Both the position numbers and the translations under genes were made by a program. From Bernardetia sp. ABR2-2B (lineage in GTDB: Bacteria > Bacteroidota > Bacteroidia > Cytophagales > Bernardetiaceae), in contig NZ_CP147020.1 in the NCBI RefSeq assembly GCF_037126435.1, forward strand, positions 2,469,293 through 2,533,292: DNA of 64,000 bases, written 5' to 3'. Shown piece after piece: positions 16,957 to 63,681 of the stretch. The notes beneath the pieces were generated by a model. The model did no database searches and was not told the origin of the DNA. It saw nothing but the letters and a program-made list of their open reading frames with translations. Within the stretch, counting starts at the first letter, position 1, and each line of letters opens with the position of its first letter.

Positions 16957-18306
16957 ATGAAAAAAGTAATTTCTAATACAGACTCTTCAAATTCTCTTTC
17001 TGAAAATTTTATACCTACTTCAAACTGGATTGCACTTATTCCTTTATTTGTTTTTGTAGGTACATTTTTAGGCGCAGGGATTTATTTCAATGATTTTTAT
17101 GCTCTTCCTTCTCCTATTGCTGTTTGTTTAGGCATTTTTGTAGCCTTTGTTTTGCTCAGAATTCCTTTCAAGGAAAACATGGATACCTTTTTAAGAGGTT
17201 GTGGTGATGAAAAAATCTTGACCATGTGTATCATTTACCTTTTAGCAGGTGCATTTTCAACAATCACAAAAGCAACTGGAAGTGTTGATGCTGTCGTCAA
17301 TTTAGGAATCAATTATATTTCTCCGAGTTATTATCCTGTTGGAATATTTTTGATAGCAGCTTTTTTGTCGTTGTCAGCAGGTACTTCTGTGGGTGCAATT
17401 GTGGCATTGGGTTCGGTTACGATGGCTCTAGCAGAACAAAGTGAGATTTCTGTTTCACTTATGGGTGCTGCTTTATTGACAGGCGCAATGTTTGGTGATA
17501 ATCTTTCTGTAATTTCTGATACCACTATTGCAGCGACGCAATCTTTGGGCTGTGAGATGAAAGACAAGATGAGAACCAACTTTAAAGTTGCCTTTCCTGC
17601 TGCTTTAGTAACAGTTATTATTCTGACTGTATATGGATTTTCTTTAGAAATAGATTCGACTTCTACTTTTGTTTCTAAATCTGTTTCTTGGGTTTTAATA
17701 GTTCCTTATGTTGTAGTTATTGTTTTATCTTTGGTAGGAATGAATGTCTTTGTTGTTTTATTTTTAGGTGTTCTTCTTTCTGGACTGATGGGATTATACT
17801 TGAATAGTTTTGATATAATTGGGTTTAGTAAAACGACTTACAAAGGTTTTGAAGGAATGAGCGAAATATTTTATCTTTCTTTACTTACTGGTGGACTGGC
17901 CGCAATGGTAGAAAAAGGGGGAGGAATACAGTTTATTCTAGAGAAAATTAGTAAATTCATCAAAAATCAACATACAGCTTTAATTGGAGTTGCTACTTTA
18001 GTAAGTGCCATTAATTTTTGTATTGCAAACAATACCGTTTCTATTTTGATTTCTGGAAAAATAGCCAAATCATTGAGTGATAAATATGAAATTGAACCAA
18101 AAATTACAGCTTCTTTATTAGATATTTTTGCTTGTATTGTTCAAGGATTGTTGCCTTATGGCGCACAAGTTTTGCTTTTGATTGGCTTGAGCGATGGACA
18201 AATAAATTACCTTGACCTTTTGAGCCAAGCGTGGTATTTACATATTTTATTTGTCTTTTCTTTGGGTTTACTTTTTTATAAAAAACAATCTGTTTCTAAA
18301 ATTTAG
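16957..18306 (+). CDS. NhaC-family Na+/H+ antiporter-like transporter
   Basis: The 449-residue inner-membrane protein has about 11-12 TM helices. It carries the NhaC-type signatures SLSAGTSVGAIVALGSVTMA and TGAMFGDNLSVISDTTIAAT, which contains the conserved Asp residues expected at the ion site, and a second half with LLTGGLAAMVEKGGG and the broken-helix segment AINFCIANNTVSILISGK. Members exchange Na+ and H+ or use Na+ to import organic substrates; some S-box- or L-box-controlled members are predicted methionine (MetT) or lysine (LysW) importers. The leader with an S-box-like core makes methionine import the most attractive guess, but this is inference. Confidence 0.88.
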   Translation: MKKVISNTDSSNSLSENFIPTSNWIALIPLFVFVGTFLGAGIYFNDFYALPSPIAVCLGIFVAFVLLRIPFKENMDTFLRGCGDEKILTMCIIYLLAGAFSTITKATGSVDAVVNLGINYISPSYYPVGIFLIAAFLSLSAGTSVGAIVALGSVTMALAEQSEISVSLMGAALLTGAMFGDNLSVISDTTIAATQSLGCEMKDKMRTNFKVAFPAALVTVIILTVYGFSLEIDSTSTFVSKSVSWVLIVPYVVVIVLSLVGMNVFVVLFLGVLLSGLMGLYLNSFDIIGFSKTTYKGFEGMSEIFYLSLLTGGLAAMVEKGGGIQFILEKISKFIKNQHTALIGVATLVSAINFCIANNTVSILISGKIAKSLSDKYEIEPKITASLLDIFACIVQGLLPYGAQVLLLIGLSDGQINYLDLLSQAWYLHILFVFSLGLLFYKKQSVSKI

Positions 18307-18314
18307 AAAAAATT

Positions 18315-18347
18315 AAACCTATACAGTTTTAAAAATTGTATAGGTTT
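18315..18347. terminator. Bidirectional terminator
   Basis: AAACCTATAC and GTATAGGTTT form a stem that continues with A-T pairs almost to closure, between two convergent genes. Confidence 0.75.
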
Positions 18348-18358
18348 GATTCTAAATT

Positions 18359-19009
18359 TTACTCAAATTTTGTAGGTGCAGTTTCTAGTTTTGTAGGGCG
18401 AAAAATAGTTGCTTTTTCTTCAATTTTGACAAATGGAATTTCATTTCCATCTTTGAACTTGAATAACTCAACAGTTTCTAATAAAATACCTTCTTCATAT
18501 TTATAATGTTGGGTAATTCTCATTGTATTATAAGGTGCAAATGAGCTAATTCCATCTAAAGAAAATTGCATAGTTTGTTCTCTAAACTCATTATCAGATT
18601 CGCCTTTTCCATTTCCTAATGAGGAATTTATAGTAGAAACTATTTTGTTTTGATTTGCAGAAAAATCAATTCCAAAAAACATAGTTTGCTCTCTTTCTCC
18701 AGCTTTTCCGTCATAATTTGGATGAATACGATGCATGTTTTTGATAGATTTCCACGAATTTTTGTATCGCCTTTGTACAACTTCGAAAGTATAATCGTTT
18801 GACTCGTTACGTTCATATTTTCCATCAAGATAAATATAAGACTCTCCACTTCCTTGCCATATAATAGAATAATTATCTTCTAATGTTGGAAGTTTTTCAC
18901 TTGTTGGAATAATTACTTGGCTAGATGTGCCACAAGAAGTTAAAGAAAAAGTAATTGCTAAGAGAGCATACATTACCATTTTTACTGCTGTTTTTTTTGT
19001 CTTTTGCAT
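18359..19009 (-). CDS. Lipoprotein of unknown function
   Basis: The 216-residue protein has a lipoprotein signal (ITFSLTSCG, Cys26). The mature part is a mixed alpha/beta domain with no motif I recognise (YSIIWQGSGESYIYLDGKYE, TFEVVQRRYKNSWKSIKNMH). It lies 92 bases from the Crp-type regulator gene on the same strand, whose product could control it. Confidence 0.7.
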   Translation of the reverse strand: MQKTKKTAVKMVMYALLAITFSLTSCGTSSQVIIPTSEKLPTLEDNYSIIWQGSGESYIYLDGKYERNESNDYTFEVVQRRYKNSWKSIKNMHRIHPNYDGKAGEREQTMFFGIDFSANQNKIVSTINSSLGNGKGESDNEFREQTMQFSLDGISSFAPYNTMRITQHYKYEEGILLETVELFKFKDGNEIPFVKIEEKATIFRPTKLETAPTKFE

Positions 19010-57105: not shown

Positions 57106-57157
57106 AAAGATAAGAGGTTGCGAGCGTACAGTCAAAACCCCATTCATTGTGGCAAAT

Positions 57158-57240
57158 AAGGTATTTTTTGGCTTGTGTTGCCTATGGTGTTTCCCATCAA
57201 AAATACCTTCCTTTAGGCAAGTAGCTAGGCTACTTTTTCC
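57158..57240. repeat. Complex inverted repeat (three-way-junction-like) downstream of the repressor
   Basis: AAGGTATTTTT (57158-57168) pairs with AAAAATACCTT (57199-57209). The 30-nt loop holds two smaller hairpins, GGC...GCC and ATGG...CCAT, giving a three-way junction. An alternative stem TTGCCTA/TAGGCAA overlaps it, and a further hairpin AGTAGC-TAG-GCTACT covers the repressor stop codon. Confidence 0.7.
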
Positions 57241-57725
57241 TCTTCTGCTTCTACGTTGTTATAAGCAGAATAAGAAACAAATAGATTTGCAGAACTACTA
57301 CTTGCCTTACCCTTTCCCAAATTTAATTCTTCCACTAACTGTGAAATATCTAACTTGTCAGAGTTTCTTAGAATAAATTGGTACATAATGTTCATTTGAC
57401 TTTGTAACTCCATAAACCTTCTCTCCAAAGAAGTTACTTTTTTCTCTTTCTCTTCTGATTCCTTTTCTAGCTTCTCATATTTATTCTTCCATTCGGAATT
57501 ATTGTCTGATTCAGATTTAAGCATTTCTCCAGTTCCAAACTTGAGCCACGAATTGTTGATTCCTTTTTTGTCAAAATATGCTAGTACATTATCATTGATA
57601 GTTTTTACTTTTCCTCGTTCAATCATACTGATTGTTTCCGTAGATGTGTTGGTTTCTTCTCCTAATTTTACTTGAGTTAGTCCAAAATGTTTACGAATTT
57701 CTTTAAATCTAACTTGTTGATTCAT
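57225..57725 (-). CDS. XRE-family repressor with long coiled coil
   Basis: The 166-residue protein has a helix-turn-helix of the Cro/CI type at about 5-60 (RFKEIRKHFGLTQVKLGEET, then TSTETISMIERGKVKTI). Residues about 78-125 form a coiled coil (EWKNKYEKLEKESEEKEKKV), probably for dimerisation. There is no peptidase (LexA-type) domain, so SOS cleavage is unlikely. It is transcribed away from the small-gene run, with a promoter region shared between them, the layout of a phage or element repressor. Confidence 0.88.
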   Translation of the reverse strand: MNQQVRFKEIRKHFGLTQVKLGEETNTSTETISMIERGKVKTINDNVLAYFDKKGINNSWLKFGTGEMLKSESDNNSEWKNKYEKLEKESEEKEKKVTSLERRFMELQSQMNIMYQFILRNSDKLDISQLVEELNLGKGKASSSSANLFVSYSAYNNVEAEEEKVA

Positions 57726-59145: not shown

Positions 59146-59227
59146 GCTAGGTTAGTACAGTGGTTAGTACGCTGATGTGAGCCTCTAGGAGCAGTCAGAA
59201 ACAGGAGTTCGAATCTCTTACCTAGTG
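59146..59227 (+). tRNA. tRNA-like sequence with a 17-nt anticodon loop
   Basis: All arms except the anticodon loop fit a tRNA. The acceptor stem is GCTAGGT/ACCTAGT (7 bp, one G-U). The D arm is GTAC-AGTGGTTA-GTAC. The T arm is AGGAG-TTCGAAT-CTCTT with the canonical TTCGAAT loop, and the discriminator is G. The anticodon stem CTGAT/GTCAG (59172-59176 with 59194-59198) closes 17 bases instead of 7, with CTA in the middle. The 3' CCA is not encoded. It could be a degenerate tRNA, a structure mimic or an odd suppressor; I cannot assign an amino acid. Confidence 0.4.
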
Positions 59228-59315
59228 CAAAATATCACTTTGATATTTTTTGGGTAAAGAAGAGAATAACAAGGGGGTTATTCTCTTCCAACTAAAATCA
59301 ACTAGCACTTTAAAA

Positions 59316-59456
59316 ATGAATCTCATAGTAGAAATTATCATTTACATTTTGGCAGTTTTGGTGTGTTTAATCATTGTAGCTATGCTTATTGATTCTATCA
59401 TCATAGATTTTATGCCAAAGAAAATACAAGACTGGTGGGAACATCGCTACTGGTAA
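59316..59456 (+). CDS. Tiny single-TM protein (46 aa)
   Basis: The ATG at 59316 is used; the frame reaches back to a TTG but that part is polar and overlaps the sequence after the tRNA-like element. The protein has one long TM helix (VEIIIYILAVLVCLIIVAML) and a basic, aromatic end (FMPKKIQDWWEHRYW). It opens the run of membrane microproteins. Confidence 0.6.
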   Translation: MNLIVEIIIYILAVLVCLIIVAMLIDSIIIDFMPKKIQDWWEHRYW

Positions 59457-59481
59457 TGTAAACCTTAAAATCAATAGAAAA

Positions 59482-59733
59482 ATGGCAAAACAACGATTAC
59501 CCTACCAAATGACGATACAAGAACGGAATGCTAAAGTAGTTACGATGAATCGTGCATTGAAAGTTATTGTAAGTCATAAAATTGAGTGTAGGAAAGCAAG
59601 AAAGGCAGAAGAGCCAGAACCGTATTTGAAACTGTCAGAAGTAGAAGTACAAACATTGATAGATGCTTGTTGTCTTGCAAAAGATGCCTTAAAAGGTGTC
59701 CAGATAGAAATGTTTAAAGAAGGAATGCCGTAG
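59482..59733 (+). CDS. Small soluble helical protein (83 aa)
   Basis: The basic protein has a helical pattern (MTIQERNAKVVTMNRALKVI, then EVEVQTLIDACCLAKDALKG) and a CC pair near residue 62. No TM or known domain. It is 25 bases after the preceding small gene. Confidence 0.62.
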   Translation: MAKQRLPYQMTIQERNAKVVTMNRALKVIVSHKIECRKARKAEEPEPYLKLSEVEVQTLIDACCLAKDALKGVQIEMFKEGMP

Positions 59734-59754
59734 AACTATAAAACAACTGACAGT

Positions 59755-59949
59755 ATGGAACATCTTATCTCATTGATAGAAAATAATTTAGAACTTACTT
59801 TTTCATTTTTCTGTGTGGTTACAAGTTGTATATCAGTCATTTTACTAAGTAGAGTGAATATGTCATTGCGTAAAGAAAACGATAAGTTACGCCACGAAAA
59901 TACACGTTTACACAATCGTCAAATAACTGGATTCGGAATACGTCCTTAA
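59755..59949 (+). CDS. Small membrane protein: one TM helix plus coiled coil (64 aa)
   Basis: A TM helix (TFSFFCVVTSCISVILLSRV) is followed by a charged heptad stretch (SLRKENDKLRHENTRLHNRQ). The positive residues right after the helix suggest that the C-terminal half is in the cytosol. Confidence 0.65.
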   Translation: MEHLISLIENNLELTFSFFCVVTSCISVILLSRVNMSLRKENDKLRHENTRLHNRQITGFGIRP

Positions 59950-59960
59950 AAAATAATCTT

Positions 59961-60215
59961 ATGGAAGACTTTTTAAATTTCTTAATAGTAATGTTAGTGC
60001 CTTATATGCTTGGAGTGGCTGTTACGCTTGTTCTTTTTAGAAAAACATTTGAAGAAGAAAGGGAGGGACAAAAGCTACTAGAAGAAAAAAATAAGGAGCT
60101 AGAACGCAAGAACTATCGTCTTCAGAACAAAATATATGAAGATGAAAAACACATTGAATTTCTACATACAGCAGTAGATGTAGAATATGAAAAGCAACAA
60201 AATAACCTATGGTAA
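59961..60215 (+). CDS. Small membrane protein: one TM helix plus long coiled coil (84 aa)
   Basis: A TM helix (LIVMLVPYMLGVAVTLVLFR) is followed by Lys/Glu heptads (KLLEEKNKELERKNYRLQNK, then a further helical part to the end). It starts 11 bases after the previous gene and its last codons overlap the start of the next small gene. Confidence 0.68.
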   Translation: MEDFLNFLIVMLVPYMLGVAVTLVLFRKTFEEEREGQKLLEEKNKELERKNYRLQNKIYEDEKHIEFLHTAVDVEYEKQQNNLW

Positions 60216-60355
60216 CTCTAATTTACACGCTACTCATAAGCCTTGTTTTCGTATTTGTGATTTTGGTATTCTTTATCCGAAAAGCAGCCAAATCAGAAGT
60301 AGAAAACGAAGCTCTACGAAAGCAGAATCAACAACTAAAATCTAAACCAAAATGA
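60209..60355 (+). CDS. Small membrane protein: one TM helix plus coiled coil (48 aa)
   Basis: ATG at 60209 overlaps the end of the preceding gene, and its TGA stop at 60353 overlaps the next ATG (ATGA). The 48-residue product has a TM helix (TLLISLVFVFVILVFFIRKA) and a short heptad tail (SEVENEALRKQNQQLKSK). It repeats the architecture of both neighbours, and the overlaps on both sides point to translational coupling. Confidence 0.68.
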   Translation: MVTLIYTLLISLVFVFVILVFFIRKAAKSEVENEALRKQNQQLKSKPK

Positions 60356-60627
60356 CTTACTTACTTATTTTTTTACTCGTTTTGTGTGTGTTTTTACTAA
60401 TCAAAAAGTCTTTTCAGTTGAGAAAGGAAAAAAGTAAATTCATACAACTGGAACTAGAAAGATGGCAAGTTCATCTTTTATTCAAAGACTATGTTTTCAA
60501 CAAGAATTTGCAAAATGAGATAGCCACTTTGGAATACTTCAAAAAGTATGGTTTGGGAGAGGAAAATCCAGAATCTGCTAAAATCTATGAGAGTTTTGAG
60601 AAATATTTAGAACAACAAGAACTATGA
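60352..60627 (+). CDS. Small membrane protein: one TM helix plus helical cytosolic tail (91 aa)
   Basis: A TM helix (YLLIFLLVLCVFLLIKKSFQ) is followed by a helical, charged tail (LELERWQVHLLFKDYVFNKN). It overlaps both neighbours by 4 bases (ATGA), so translation is probably coupled. It lacks an obvious strong coiled coil but keeps the same overall plan. Confidence 0.68.
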   Translation: MTYLLIFLLVLCVFLLIKKSFQLRKEKSKFIQLELERWQVHLLFKDYVFNKNLQNEIATLEYFKKYGLGEENPESAKIYESFEKYLEQQEL

Positions 60628-61793
60628 AAGCAACTGACAAAATACTGCAAGCCTTTGGAGGACTAGGAAAGAAGCCAAGTGAAAATCATAGTGGCGACCC
60701 ATTCCAACAGGCTCTGAATGAAACACGAGCTAAAGGCTACTATGAAGAAGCAGCCCAAAAACTCACACCGACCACACAAGCCCAAAAAAGGCGTGGTTCG
60801 TTCAAAATAGTAAAGTCTTTAAAAGGCTTCTATCATATTGTTTCTTTCCTTTTAGGATTGATAACAGCTTATTTGGTAGGCAAAACCTTTGCCCCCAACT
60901 TTGACAGCGTAGAAATGATAGCAATGGCTATTCTGATAGGGCTTTTTTCAGTAGGAATATTCTACGCCCTTGAAAAAATGAAAGCTGAATCTGCTCAATC
61001 TATTGCTCAATCAAGAGCCATAGGAGACAAAGCAAGTACCATGTCGTGGATTGGTTTGCTCACTTGTACACTTGCCAGTATTGTTATTTCGGCAACAGGT
61101 GGAGCGCATATTTCGGCTACTCTCCAAGATAAGAGTTCAGAAATTACGGCTACTTCTAACCAAGAAGCTGACAGTATAAAAGCTAGTTTTTCCGAACAAA
61201 TAAGTAGTTATGACCTACTTATCAATAGTGCGAATGAAACTCTCAAAAAACACAAAACAAGTTGGCAAGCCATAACTGCTAGAAAAGACTTGAAAGAAGC
61301 ACAAGAACAGAAAAATAAACTTTTAGAAATGCAAACAGCAGCTTTATCTGAAATTAAAGCAGATACTAAAAGCTCACTTTCTGCCAATGACAAAGACAGT
61401 TCAAAGAATGCGCTCATTGCAGCAGTCGTAATTCTGATACTAGAAATACTTTGTATTTATGGCTACTTCTATGAATATTCATATTATCGTTTTGCACTTG
61501 ATGAAGGCGTTGCTTTCAATGTCATACCTCCAGTTGTTATCTTTCCAGAGGTTCAATATCAACAGGCAAGTTTAGGAGGGTTTCAAGCTCAACACCAACA
61601 TAAAAATCCGATTGGATTTGGTAGTCAGAATAGAAATAATGACCCTCAAGCAAGTAGTCAGAATCACGTTTGTAGGAACTGTGGAACTAGCTTATCACAT
61701 AAGCGTTCTGATGCCGTTTTTTGCTCCAATAATTGTAGAGTAATACATCATCGCAACATTGGAACAGGAACAAAAGGACAAGTGTACCGATGA
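60624..61793 (+). CDS. Multi-TM protein with C-terminal zinc ribbon
   Basis: The 389-residue protein has an N-terminal cytosolic part, then TM pairs at about residues 70-90 and 95-117 and again at about 135-160 and 255-280. Between the last two pairs lies a Glu/Lys/Ser-rich helical domain (EITATSNQEADSIKASFSEQ, LINSANETLKKHKTSWQAIT) outside the membrane. The C-terminus has a CxxC-x-CxxxC-type ribbon (VCRNCGTSLSHKRSDAVFCS followed by NNCRVIHHR), likely a zinc site. It overlaps the preceding small gene by 4 bases. Function unknown; it may be the hub of this membrane cassette. Confidence 0.72.
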   Translation: MKATDKILQAFGGLGKKPSENHSGDPFQQALNETRAKGYYEEAAQKLTPTTQAQKRRGSFKIVKSLKGFYHIVSFLLGLITAYLVGKTFAPNFDSVEMIAMAILIGLFSVGIFYALEKMKAESAQSIAQSRAIGDKASTMSWIGLLTCTLASIVISATGGAHISATLQDKSSEITATSNQEADSIKASFSEQISSYDLLINSANETLKKHKTSWQAITARKDLKEAQEQKNKLLEMQTAALSEIKADTKSSLSANDKDSSKNALIAAVVILILEILCIYGYFYEYSYYRFALDEGVAFNVIPPVVIFPEVQYQQASLGGFQAQHQHKNPIGFGSQNRNNDPQASSQNHVCRNCGTSLSHKRSDAVFCSNNCRVIHHRNIGTGTKGQVYR

Positions 61794-61820
61794 GAAAAAA
61801 AATGTTCATCAAAAAATCGT

Positions 61821-61940
61821 GTAACGGATAACTGTAACGGTTTGTAACGGCTATTAACGCCTAGAACGGCTATAAAGAGGTTTTTGTAACGGATAAAAAC
61901 GGATAGGATTATCCGTTACACAAGTGTTACACAAACGTTC
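61821..61940. promoter_or_regulatory. Iteron-like GTAACGG cluster with an 11-bp inverted repeat
   Basis: GTAACGG or a close variant begins at 61821, 61834, 61844, 61854 (TTAACGC), 61863 (AGAACGG), 61886 and 61896 (AAAACGG). The first steps are about 9-13 bases, near one helical turn. GTAACGGATAA at 61821 and 61886 recurs inverted at 61909-61919 (TTATCCGTTAC), and GTTAC repeats continue to about 61951. It lies between the zinc-ribbon gene and the gene at 61996. Confidence 0.72.
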
Positions 61941-61995: not shown

Positions 61996-62295
61996 ATGGC
62001 AGACCAAACCCAAACTCCAGAACCAAATGTAGCAGACACAAATGTTGCAAATGAATCAGCTACTGATAGTGTAGTTGTTGAAAAATTTGCTACAACGATT
62101 GTAGAATTATGGCTTTCTCCAACAGGACAAAAAAGCTATGTTCGTACCGTGGTAAGAAATGATAAAGAGGAAATTGTTGAGGACTTTAAAGCCAATTTAC
62201 CTAAGACCACAGCTAGAAAATTTCTCAACCAACCAGCTTTTGAGGAATTAGAAATGACAATGAAAAAAGGTTATACAGTTGTCCGTATGCCTTAG
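61996..62295 (+). CDS. Small acidic protein, possible DNA-binding or regulatory (99 aa)
   Basis: A low-complexity Thr/Asn/Val N-terminus (TQTPEPNVADTNVANESATD) leads to a folded part (TTIVELWLSPTGQKSYVRTV, KANLPKTTARKFLNQPAFEE). It is the first gene after the iteron-like cluster and is followed by a terminator, so it is probably transcribed from a promoter in that cluster. No family recognised. Confidence 0.65.
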   Translation: MADQTQTPEPNVADTNVANESATDSVVVEKFATTIVELWLSPTGQKSYVRTVVRNDKEEIVEDFKANLPKTTARKFLNQPAFEELEMTMKKGYTVVRMP

Positions 62296-62386: not shown

Positions 62387-62674
62387 ATGAACCCAGTAGA
62401 AGACCAAGTCAAAGAAACACTAGCTATTTTCCTCAAAGAACTCACAGAGCTTCACGAAGCTGATGAGAAACAGGAGCAGTTGAAAAAGGAAAGTGAAAAG
62501 GTAAATACCTTGATAGTTGAAATAGATGAAAGAGGAAGCTACTTGACACACTTTTTCAATGCAGCAGAATCTGAACCAAACGAACATTTGGCAGGTATCT
62601 CTTACAATGATTTGAAACGTCAAATACAGATTCTCAACTCTCAAAAAAGGAAAGAAAAACAGACAAACTCTTAA
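62387..62674 (+). CDS. Small helical protein (95 aa), function unknown
   Basis: The soluble protein is helical and charged (VKETLAIFLKELTELHEADE, KQEQLKKESEKVNTLIVEID), with a short strand-like end (LAGISYNDLKRQIQILNSQK). It begins 29 bases after the terminator and is followed after 3 bases by the next gene. Confidence 0.63.
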   Translation: MNPVEDQVKETLAIFLKELTELHEADEKQEQLKKESEKVNTLIVEIDERGSYLTHFFNAAESEPNEHLAGISYNDLKRQIQILNSQKRKEKQTNS

Positions 62675-62677
62675 AAT

Positions 62678-62974
62678 ATGATACAGTATTTTAAATATGA
62701 AAATAGAGAAAATAAATGGTTTTATATTTCTGTCAATGAGCAGGTATTTTTTGATAAGAAATTTGCTACCATTTTATACGATGACAAACCAAAGCTTAAA
62801 ATAGAAGTAAAGGAAATACATCGCATTGAGAAATACTGGGAGAACTCAAATAAAGAAGAGTTCACTAAAATACTTCAATCAAAAATCGATTTTTTATTGC
62901 AAGTACAGGAGCTTAAAAATACAAATGATGAAGACACCCCAAACCCAACCCAACTAAAAACTCAAATTAAATGA
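62678..62974 (+). CDS. Small protein (98 aa), function unknown
   Basis: A mixed strand/helix protein (IQYFKYENRENKWFYISVNE, KLKIEVKEIHRIEKYWENSN, then EFTKILQSKIDFLLQVQELK). It overlaps the next gene by 4 bases (ATGA at 62971-62974), suggesting coupled translation with the HTH protein. Confidence 0.63.
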   Translation: MIQYFKYENRENKWFYISVNEQVFFDKKFATILYDDKPKLKIEVKEIHRIEKYWENSNKEEFTKILQSKIDFLLQVQELKNTNDEDTPNPTQLKTQIK

Positions 62975-63681
62975 ATCAAGTACAACCCAAAGGCAAAGAG
63001 AAACCGAATCACATTGCCTACGAAAAGATGCACCGTAGTCTGCTCGCAAAAATAGATGACTACAATGATGGAAAGGAGGTAGGAGAGGCTATCAATTCCA
63101 ATGAACAAGCTACTCTACTCTTTATTTACGATACCTTTGTTCGTCTCTACAAAGAGAAAAGCAAAGATACCAAGCTCATCACTTGGACAAATGGAAAGCA
63201 GTATGCCTGTTTGGTTACAAACAACCAATCTCTAGCCACACAACGAGGAGTAAGGTCTGAAAAAACCATCCGTAATCACGTCAAGAAACTATCTAAAGCA
63301 GGTTTTTTGTTCAAACCTAAAAAGGGTACTGACCCTTATAGTAAGTGGTTTAATTTCTCTATTTTTCTTGACCCTAGCCACCTTATCACTTACGCAGGAT
63401 ACACCATAGCAGAAGCCAAAAGAATCCTACCAGAAGCCCAAAAATTCTACCGTTTGAAGGAAGATTTTTGCAGCATTGCAGGAATAAGCGAAGTGCAAAA
63501 ACAGCACTTCAGAAACTTCTCTTTACAGTCCTTTTCAAAGGAAAATAACACACTTATTGTAAAGTGTTCACAACAAGCCTGTGAAGCTATCAGAAATGCT
63601 CCAGAAGGCAAGATATATAGACAACTAGCTCAAAATTTCTACGGTAAAAATGTGTCGGTACAACACGTTTTTGATGCCTAA
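62971..63681 (+). CDS. HTH protein, possible replication initiation or regulatory protein
   Basis: The 236-residue protein has a winged-helix-like middle (about 80-115): QSLATQRGVRSEKTIRNHVK followed by KLSKAGFLFKPKKGTDPYS, a helix-turn-helix with basic wing. The C-terminal end (TLIVKCSQQACEAIRNAPEG, then IYRQLAQNFYGKNVSVQHVF) recalls the N-terminal interaction domain of DnaA by pattern only. With iteron-like repeats upstream and another repeat cluster downstream, a role in element replication is a reasonable guess. Confidence 0.6.
   Translation: MNQVQPKGKEKPNHIAYEKMHRSLLAKIDDYNDGKEVGEAINSNEQATLLFIYDTFVRLYKEKSKDTKLITWTNGKQYACLVTNNQSLATQRGVRSEKTIRNHVKKLSKAGFLFKPKKGTDPYSKWFNFSIFLDPSHLITYAGYTIAEAKRILPEAQKFYRLKEDFCSIAGISEVQKQHFRNFSLQSFSKENNTLIVKCSQQACEAIRNAPEGKIYRQLAQNFYGKNVSVQHVFDA

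Follow-up and report, generated by a model that had tools for sequence, protein, structure and literature searches.

A four-helix membrane protein with small transmembrane neighbours at replication loci of Bernardetia mobile elements: a candidate membrane anchor

Genes at the Locus

The 64,000-nucleotide (nt) stretch of DNA from Bernardetia sp. ABR2-2B that was analysed here (the window) comes from the largest contig in a genome of 5.38 Mb, whose close named relatives are Bernardetia sp. MNP-M8 and Bernardetia sp. MAG-102. At positions 59316 to 61793 it carries six small open reading frames (ORFs) that lead into a gene for a 389-amino-acid (aa) membrane protein, referred to below, with its family, as F0. 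Judging from the 13-bp repeat at position 57114, which recurs at the end of tRNA-Cys beside an integrase gene, this run belongs to an integrative element of ∼38 kb at tRNA-Cys (element A); related elements are found in the same genome (element B) and in genomes G002 and G006. The original prediction, made from the letters of the window, overlooked that a mobile element has its replication locus at this run. The features of the locus, including those with one or more transmembrane (TM) helices, are as follows.

57114-57126, strand not set: attL, 13-bp repeat GAGGTTGCGAGCG; the second copy is the 3' end of tRNA-Cys past the integrase, ∼38 kb downstream, outside the window
57225-57725, minus strand: CI-like repressor, divergent from the early genes (phrog_8, E = 1.6e-9)
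59316-59456, plus strand: 46-aa single-TM protein, family F4, with one or more copies per related element
59482-59733, plus strand: 83-aa soluble protein, family F14, also in element B (as a 95-aa ORF), G002, G006, and the distant copy G3C79
59755-59949, plus strand: 64-aa TM protein with a charged tail; counterpart not found in the other copies
59961-60215, plus strand: 84-aa TM protein with a charged tail, family F39 (elements A and B)
60209-60355, plus strand: 48-aa TM ORF overlapping both neighbours; not conserved, uncertain
60352-60627, plus strand: 91-aa single-TM protein of family F8, which in 6 contexts lies directly upstream of F0
60624-61793, plus strand: F0, with TM helices 1 to 3, a predicted periplasmic helical hairpin, TM4, a disordered linker with an IGF motif, and a C-x2-C-x13-C-x3-C zinc motif
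61820-61936, strand not set: iteron array TGTAACGG[A/C]TA with inverted copies, putative origin
61996-62295, plus strand: 99-aa conserved protein F21, after the iterons
62387-62674, plus strand: 95-aa conserved protein F22
62971-63681, plus strand: 236-aa Rep-like protein with a C-terminal DnaA-domain-I-like fold; the N-terminal half is perhaps a winged helix (weak)

The Small TM Proteins

The five small single-TM proteins of 46 to 91 aa that had been predicted to precede a multi-TM protein are indeed present in the sequence, together with an 83-aa soluble ORF. One strong hydrophobic helix (threshold score for a TM helix, 1.6) is found in five of the six small ORFs (46, 64, 84, 48, and 91 aa) and none in the 83-aa protein, so that the run consists of five TM proteins and a soluble one. 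The overlaps at 60209, 60352, and 60624 are real and amount to 7, 4, and 4 nt (84/48, 48/91, and 91/389 aa, respectively). On the plus strand of positions 59301 to 60650, five TM-bearing ORFs of at least 44 aa with an ATG start were observed against a mean of 0.03 in shuffled sequences, and five were reached in none of 500 shuffles. Judged by codon usage, the 46-, 83-, 64-, 84-, and 389-aa ORFs score best in their own frame, but those of 48 and 91 aa do not. Between elements A and B, the rates of nonsynonymous (dN) and synonymous (dS) substitution are 0.16 and 1.25 for the 46-aa gene, 0.24 and 1.97 for the 91-aa gene, and 0.11 and 0.67 for the 389-aa gene; dN being far below dS, the products of these three genes are, by this measure, proteins under purifying selection. 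The 46-aa ORF has an alternative upstream TTG start that would extend it to 68 aa. The very small gene proposed at 60209-60355 exists as an ORF with a TM helix, but elements B, G002, and G006 have no counterpart of it at this site, and codon usage does not favour it; its status as a gene is uncertain.

All five TM microproteins have no Lys or Arg before the helix and 2 to 5 such residues within 15 residues after it, which supports a cytosolic location of their C-terminal tails. The positive-inside topology that had been proposed is thus supported as far as orientation is concerned, although in the 46- and 84-aa proteins the acidic residues after the helix equal or outnumber Lys/Arg and the net charge is not positive. 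The Lys/Glu heptads described for these tails were not supported by a crude heptad test, in which none of 16 proteins was significant (lowest p, 0.083).

The F0 Protein and Its Family

The multi-TM protein with a C-terminal zinc ribbon was correctly recognised: F0 has four TM helices and a four-cysteine zinc motif. AlphaFold modelling with four sequences reached a mean predicted local distance difference test (pLDDT) value of 64.7, with the helical hairpin between TM3 and TM4 close to 90 and the linker and tail at low confidence. By topology, the hairpin, a coiled coil, is predicted to be periplasmic and both termini cytosolic, so the earlier placement of the coiled coils in the cytosol agrees with the charge pattern of the microprotein tails but not with the coiled coil of F0 itself. 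Conservation is complete or almost complete at, among others, the four cysteines of the tail, E117, K120, W214, E274, and G331-F332 of the IGF motif.

Scans of 23 F0 members against Pfam and PHROGs gave weak matches only, with none of weight for the membrane part. In 19 of 23 members, the zinc tail is similar to a zinc region found in phage HNH nucleases (phrog_1271, best E = 1e-6). Holin profiles weakly match 4 of the 23 members (best E = 3.1e-4), which raises the question whether these are prophage lysis proteins (holin or spanin). We see a very slim chance of this: the microprotein tails are predicted from their charge pattern to be cytosolic rather than periplasmic as in a spanin, F0 occurs on plasmids where no lysis gene was noticed, and the amidase of element A lies in a distant late module, away from F0.

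Membership in DUF4407 (PF14362) was also considered. By our reading, that family shares with F0 its TM helices and a long helical region before the last one, and a weak match was seen in 4 of the 23 members (best E = 9.7e-6). It was rejected: the only genome match inside an F0 gene (G003:C94) was below the curated cut-off, none was found in G000, and hhalign of F0 against four DUF4407 proteins, in which no zinc motif like that of F0 was seen, gave a probability of 11% over 125 columns.

The F0 profile had some match in 56 of 291 sampled genomes of the order, extending beyond the zinc tail in only ∼23 by our reading of the ranges, and in 18 of 395 genomes of a phylum sample, where all matches except that in G000 were tail-only or very short; the membrane part thus looks restricted to Cytophagales in these samples. 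No relatives were found among viral contigs for F0 or for a 228-aa late protein of element A, GenBank phages yielded only two short zinc-region matches (E = 0.5 to 0.7), and a plasmid search returned a single match, on a Bernardetia plasmid. Foldseek searches with the F0 model found no PDB match at E ≤ 0.001 and, in BFVD, four viral proteins without a named function (best E = 1.7e-6, TM-score 0.48). Two entries, G13 and own3054 17996-18520, each a short unrelated membrane protein joined by clustering, were dropped, and G6C30, an exact match to G2C5, was left out of alignment A1.

The tails appear to vary. The sequence QLDLF forms the exact C-terminal end of 2 of 43 F0 proteins, the distant L138 and L139; among 873 other proteins, the strict QLDLF-type motif was found only in one gene on two near-identical plasmids. 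Of the motifs that bind the sliding clamp, the commonest has the consensus QL[S/D]LF (PMC12309361). In the distant L130 to L132, the tails read by eye as helix-turn-helix (HTH). Swapping of tails (zinc, HTH-like, clamp motif) among F0 lineages is a lead, not a result.

Conserved Gene Order in Related Elements

Elements A and B are 83% identical. In A, B, G002, and G006, a 45- to 46-aa TM protein is followed by soluble small proteins, including the 83-aa family, then a charged-tail protein, an 81- to 95-aa TM protein, and the large protein; the same order is seen in a fifth, partial copy as far as the contig end. In the four complete copies, the large protein is followed by an iteron array and a Rep of 234 to 237 aa. 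In A and B, the protein with the charged tail clearly has a TM helix. Its counterpart in G002 and G006, where a 100-aa protein (F34) replaces the 84-aa one, has two CxxC pairs in the tail and a helix that scores 1.32, below the threshold. The 64- and 48-aa TM proteins were found in element A alone.

The junction into the large gene is a 4-nt overlap in element A and in the distant G3C79, whose F0 has 21% identity; the overlap measures 38 nt in both G002 and G006, and in B the genes are separated by 5 nt. The loss of order and overlaps in relatives that would have counted against the original prediction was therefore not seen: the order is largely kept and the 4-nt overlap recurs. Among the 6 contexts with F8 directly upstream of F0, one contig (G6p87) stops 58 residues into F0; a different small TM protein, F7, lies directly or one ORF upstream of F0 in G6C63b, G6C31, and G6C88. 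The ORF caller was greedy by length and missed some genes, hiding the 83-aa homologue in B and a Toprim gene beside F0 in G6C17.

Replication Genes Beside F0

A replication-type gene lies within 5 kb of F0 in 22 of 25 Bernardetiaceae copies, a set that includes one plasmid assembled twice and one near-identical pair and from which the truncated genes in G3C145 and G6p87 were excluded. The three exceptions are C4 and G2C5, where a plasmid is cut open and the distance is counted along the linear form (G2C5 is the same molecule as plasm4, which carries a circular annotation; C4 has no terminal overlap), and G9C109, a 6.7-kb contig without a replication-type gene. By Pfam, the neighbours include Toprim (E = 1.4e-15), VapE (E = 2.3e-32), and RepB primase (E = 1.3e-19) proteins, as well as an 1144-aa plasmid protein with a weak Toprim match (E = 1.6e-4). 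The Rep with the DnaA-domain-I-like fold also counts among the replication-type neighbours. In contexts selected for holding F0, it is the sole family, of those present in at least 3 contexts, that occurs in all three replicon types (8, 9, and 6 contexts). Converse searches, from the replication gene to F0, covered seven Bernardetia genomes: Rep adjoins F0 in 5 of 5 cases, Toprim accompanies F0 in 7 of 9 distinct genes, and contigs with the plasmid primase-helicase (F10 type) carry F0 in 5 of 12 cases, G006:C72 not counted.

In all four type-A elements, the iterons follow directly 3' of F0, a result reached in 0 of 200 shuffles each. Across the window the iteron pattern has 5 matches, 4 of them in the array after F0, against an expected total of 0.28. 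As a control, 123 stretches downstream of other genes (150 aa or longer) were examined; 8 contained five or more copies of one 8-mer, and a VapE-type gene immediately precedes 6 of these. The Rep of element A has no strong sequence match; in a model with pLDDT values of 82 to 91 from residue 161 onward, the fold of the last 80 residues is like that of DnaA domain I and of the helicase loader DciA (best TM-score, against 4tps_B, 0.78 by target length). The Foldseek E values for this region are weak (0.03 to 0.3; DnaA chains, 0.03 to 0.2), so that the model is suggestive of a DnaA domain I fold.

Small Plasmids and the F0/ParA Pattern

The contigs C69 and C72 (7,927 and 7,527 bp) have terminal overlaps of 34 and 46 bp, as in circular molecules, and contain little besides a primase, F0, an HTH-like/coiled-coil/TM protein (HTH support weak, E = 0.008 in 1 of 4 scanned), and a short protein that we read from its sequence as ribbon-helix-helix (RHH)-like. 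Among 12 informative F10-type plasmid contigs (G006:C72 added; G005:C168, a 4-kb fragment with neither gene, left out), six carry F0 without ParA (G000:C4, G002:C5, G004:C21, and G006:C30, C69, and C72) and six carry ParA without F0 (G000:C3, G002:C2, G002:C4, G005:C393, and G006:C55 and C9). ParA (PF13614) had no match at E up to 1 on the six F0-bearing plasmid contigs in the five genomes searched; Pfam confirms ParA in 5 of the 6 other contigs, two of the five barely above the cut-off. In the two best assemblies, with seven small contigs (the four annotated plasmids of G002 and three in G000), ParA is found on five and F0 on the other two. F0 and ParA partition proteins may have a common job, stable plasmid inheritance; F0 differs in having no recognised ATPase domain and in lying on different plasmid contigs in the set examined.

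Three observations concern individual plasmids. G004:C21 has two identical F0 genes (L065 4322-5566 and 13130-14374) 8,808 bp apart with the same neighbours and is probably one circular plasmid assembled twice. C4 (12.9 kb) encodes, on the minus strand (L020 4861-7344), an 827-aa protein with a PhageMin_Tail domain (E = 2.7e-37), and no other tail gene was noticed there. A 42-kb Bernardetia plasmid (L150, NZ_CP147013) carries a type VI secretion-like set (tssD, tssO, VgrG, gp25, Clp ATPase) and ParA.

Weighing the Possible Functions

We propose, at close to an even chance, that F0 anchors either the DNA of mobile elements or their replication machinery to the membrane. The bases for this anchor are the predicted topology, the position at replication loci, conservation, the gene overlap, and, in a small set, the mutual exclusivity of F0 and ParA; binding of DNA or clamp, tethering, a role in partition, and contact between F0 and the microproteins are what we infer from them. 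The anchor is preferred because of position, presence across replication types, occurrence on minimal plasmids, and the F0/ParA pattern. A membrane-attached scaffold or assembly platform was also the best-fitting of the options in the original prediction.

Several observations weigh against an anchor. F0 is absent from 7 of the 12 F10-type plasmid contigs of the converse search and from beside 2 of the 9 Toprim genes. Outside type-A elements, repeats after F0 are weak or absent: own3054, own1056, ownC4, and G6C90 have 3 copies, equalled in 1 to 7 of 200 shuffles, and nothing was found in the other 15 copies tested. The zinc motif is missing from the Bernardetiaceae copy G3C79 and from seven distant F0 proteins (L130 to L136), and Pfam support for HTH-like tails is weak (E = 0.019 in 1 of 6 scanned). 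Several of the plasmids are closely related and the F0 contigs are mostly smaller (7.5 to 20 kb versus 11 to 64 kb), so the F0/ParA pattern may reflect size and descent. Outside Bernardetiaceae, replication-type genes occur in only 5 of 18 F0 neighbourhoods, two clear (VapE and RepB primase) and three by way of DUF3987/DUF6371 genes, which we take to be of primase-helicase type; here L136 was judged by its likeness to L135, and L141 and L142 (2 of 20 distant loci), where no F0 ORF was called, were left out. Among these 18, ParA lies 3.5 kb from F0 in L124 (genome G136), L127 has a STAND NTPase, and L137 has an AAA_25 ATPase with a weaker STAND match. Since the link to replication is weaker there, the family may have other uses outside Bernardetiaceae.

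The two STAND-type neighbours, along with restriction-type genes (by sequence reading) elsewhere in elements A and B, would suit an anti-phage defence or stress sensor, with the membrane proteins as detectors of infection and nucleic acid as the target of the cytosolic zinc domain. We consider this improbable, and the anti-phage sensor of the original prediction with it: PADLOC matches are weak and partial (the 84-aa protein to ZorA, E = 7e-4; the 389-aa protein to CARF_TM, E = 0.0026), and the close neighbours in Bernardetia elements are replication genes.

The main rival is superinfection or entry exclusion, in which F0 and the small TM proteins, all placed in the inner membrane, would block DNA delivery by related plasmids, islands, or phages into an already occupied cell. 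Known exclusion genes lie in the early region beside the repressor, and the run is likewise in the left, early part of element A, flanked by the CI-like repressor. F0 is also carried by elements that compete in one host, G000 having 5 matches and G006 having 14, some of which are fragments. Yet many F0 elements coexist in those genomes, including the close pair A and B, so specificity would need to be high, and F0 is present on minimal plasmids and beside primases. Exclusion is therefore an unlikely, if serious, alternative to the membrane anchor.

Other Features of Element A and Its Relatives

A tRNA-Leu (gag) gene lies within element A at window positions 59146-59228, and a degenerate tRNA-like match is found upstream of the run in element B. 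Directly after the integrase of element B (joined L009+L010+L021 49226-57800) there is a similar plan of a repressor-like gene, small TM proteins, a 317-aa multi-TM protein, and a Rep-like gene. Between the Rep region and the late module is a slot with genes that, from their sequence, read as type I restriction; the slot is alike in A and G006 and different in B and G002. Its instances are as follows.

L007 3726-7390: restriction-like slot
L009 16090-23096: restriction-like slot
joined L048+L049 20449-26370: restriction-like slot
joined L050+L051 14034-17641, reverse: restriction-like slot

The late module of element A (L007 8463 to L008 9936, ∼72,200-93,600, past the window end) encodes an amidase, a transglutaminase-like KR-rich protein, an SNF2 helicase, and a Sak4/ATPase-like protein; PHROGs recognised no terminase, portal, or capsid in the 18 of ∼26 late ORFs scanned, and the module could be that of a new virus type. 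Motifs of the GL[NSD]G type, chosen post hoc, number 12 in 6,836 late residues versus 1 in 15,742 residues of host ORFs and are possibly protein-processing sites. This unusual module, with no recognised terminase, portal, or capsid, would fit virion membrane proteins of an internal-membrane phage. For F0 such a role is very unlikely, as it occurs on plasmids and islands without that module, and its run is early by position.

A Proposed Role in Maintenance of Mobile Elements

The closest known parallel to the proposed anchor is p16.7 (and p1) of phage phi29, which like F0 is encoded in an early region, sits in the membrane, and has a link to replication. A single TM helix, a coiled coil, and a DNA-binding tail make up p16.7; F0 differs in its four TM helices, periplasmic hairpin, and zinc-motif tail, the DNA-binding fold of p16.7 being another one. 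None of the 7 PDB entries that the F0 profile matched by sequence is a p16.7 structure. By analogy, F0 would work like p16.7, which is reported to organise membrane-associated viral DNA replication (PMC11476376), probably without belonging to its family.

In the mechanism that we envisage, the four TM helices would hold F0 in the inner membrane, with the antiparallel hairpin projecting into the periplasm and a flexible cytosolic linker bearing the small zinc domain, which in some distant relatives would be swapped for HTH-like tails or succeeded by a sliding-clamp-binding motif. F0 would capture the element's replisome or its origin DNA and keep either at the membrane, where copies would be replicated or passed on; on small plasmids, it would possibly substitute for the ParA partition system. 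The small TM proteins, with their cytosolic tails and overlapping or close genes, might be accessory subunits. A fuller version, which we regard as possible but doubtful, is that F0 and its small TM partners form a ParA-independent, membrane-tethered maintenance system of Cytophagales plasmids, satellite-like islands, and the 38-kb integrative element, with a tail (zinc motif, HTH-like, or clamp motif) that is swapped between lineages and keeps the sliding clamp or origin DNA attached to the envelope.

A literature search found no paper combining "Bernardetia" and "prophage," and among the papers listed for membrane-anchored plasmid replication or partition and for DUF4407 none was on topic. 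To our knowledge, the replication and inheritance of small plasmids and phage-like elements of Bacteroidota are poorly described. If the proposed role is correct, one membrane family would be common to three replication types, maybe replacing ParA, and would offer a handle on membrane-based replication and segregation of mobile DNA beyond the few phages studied.

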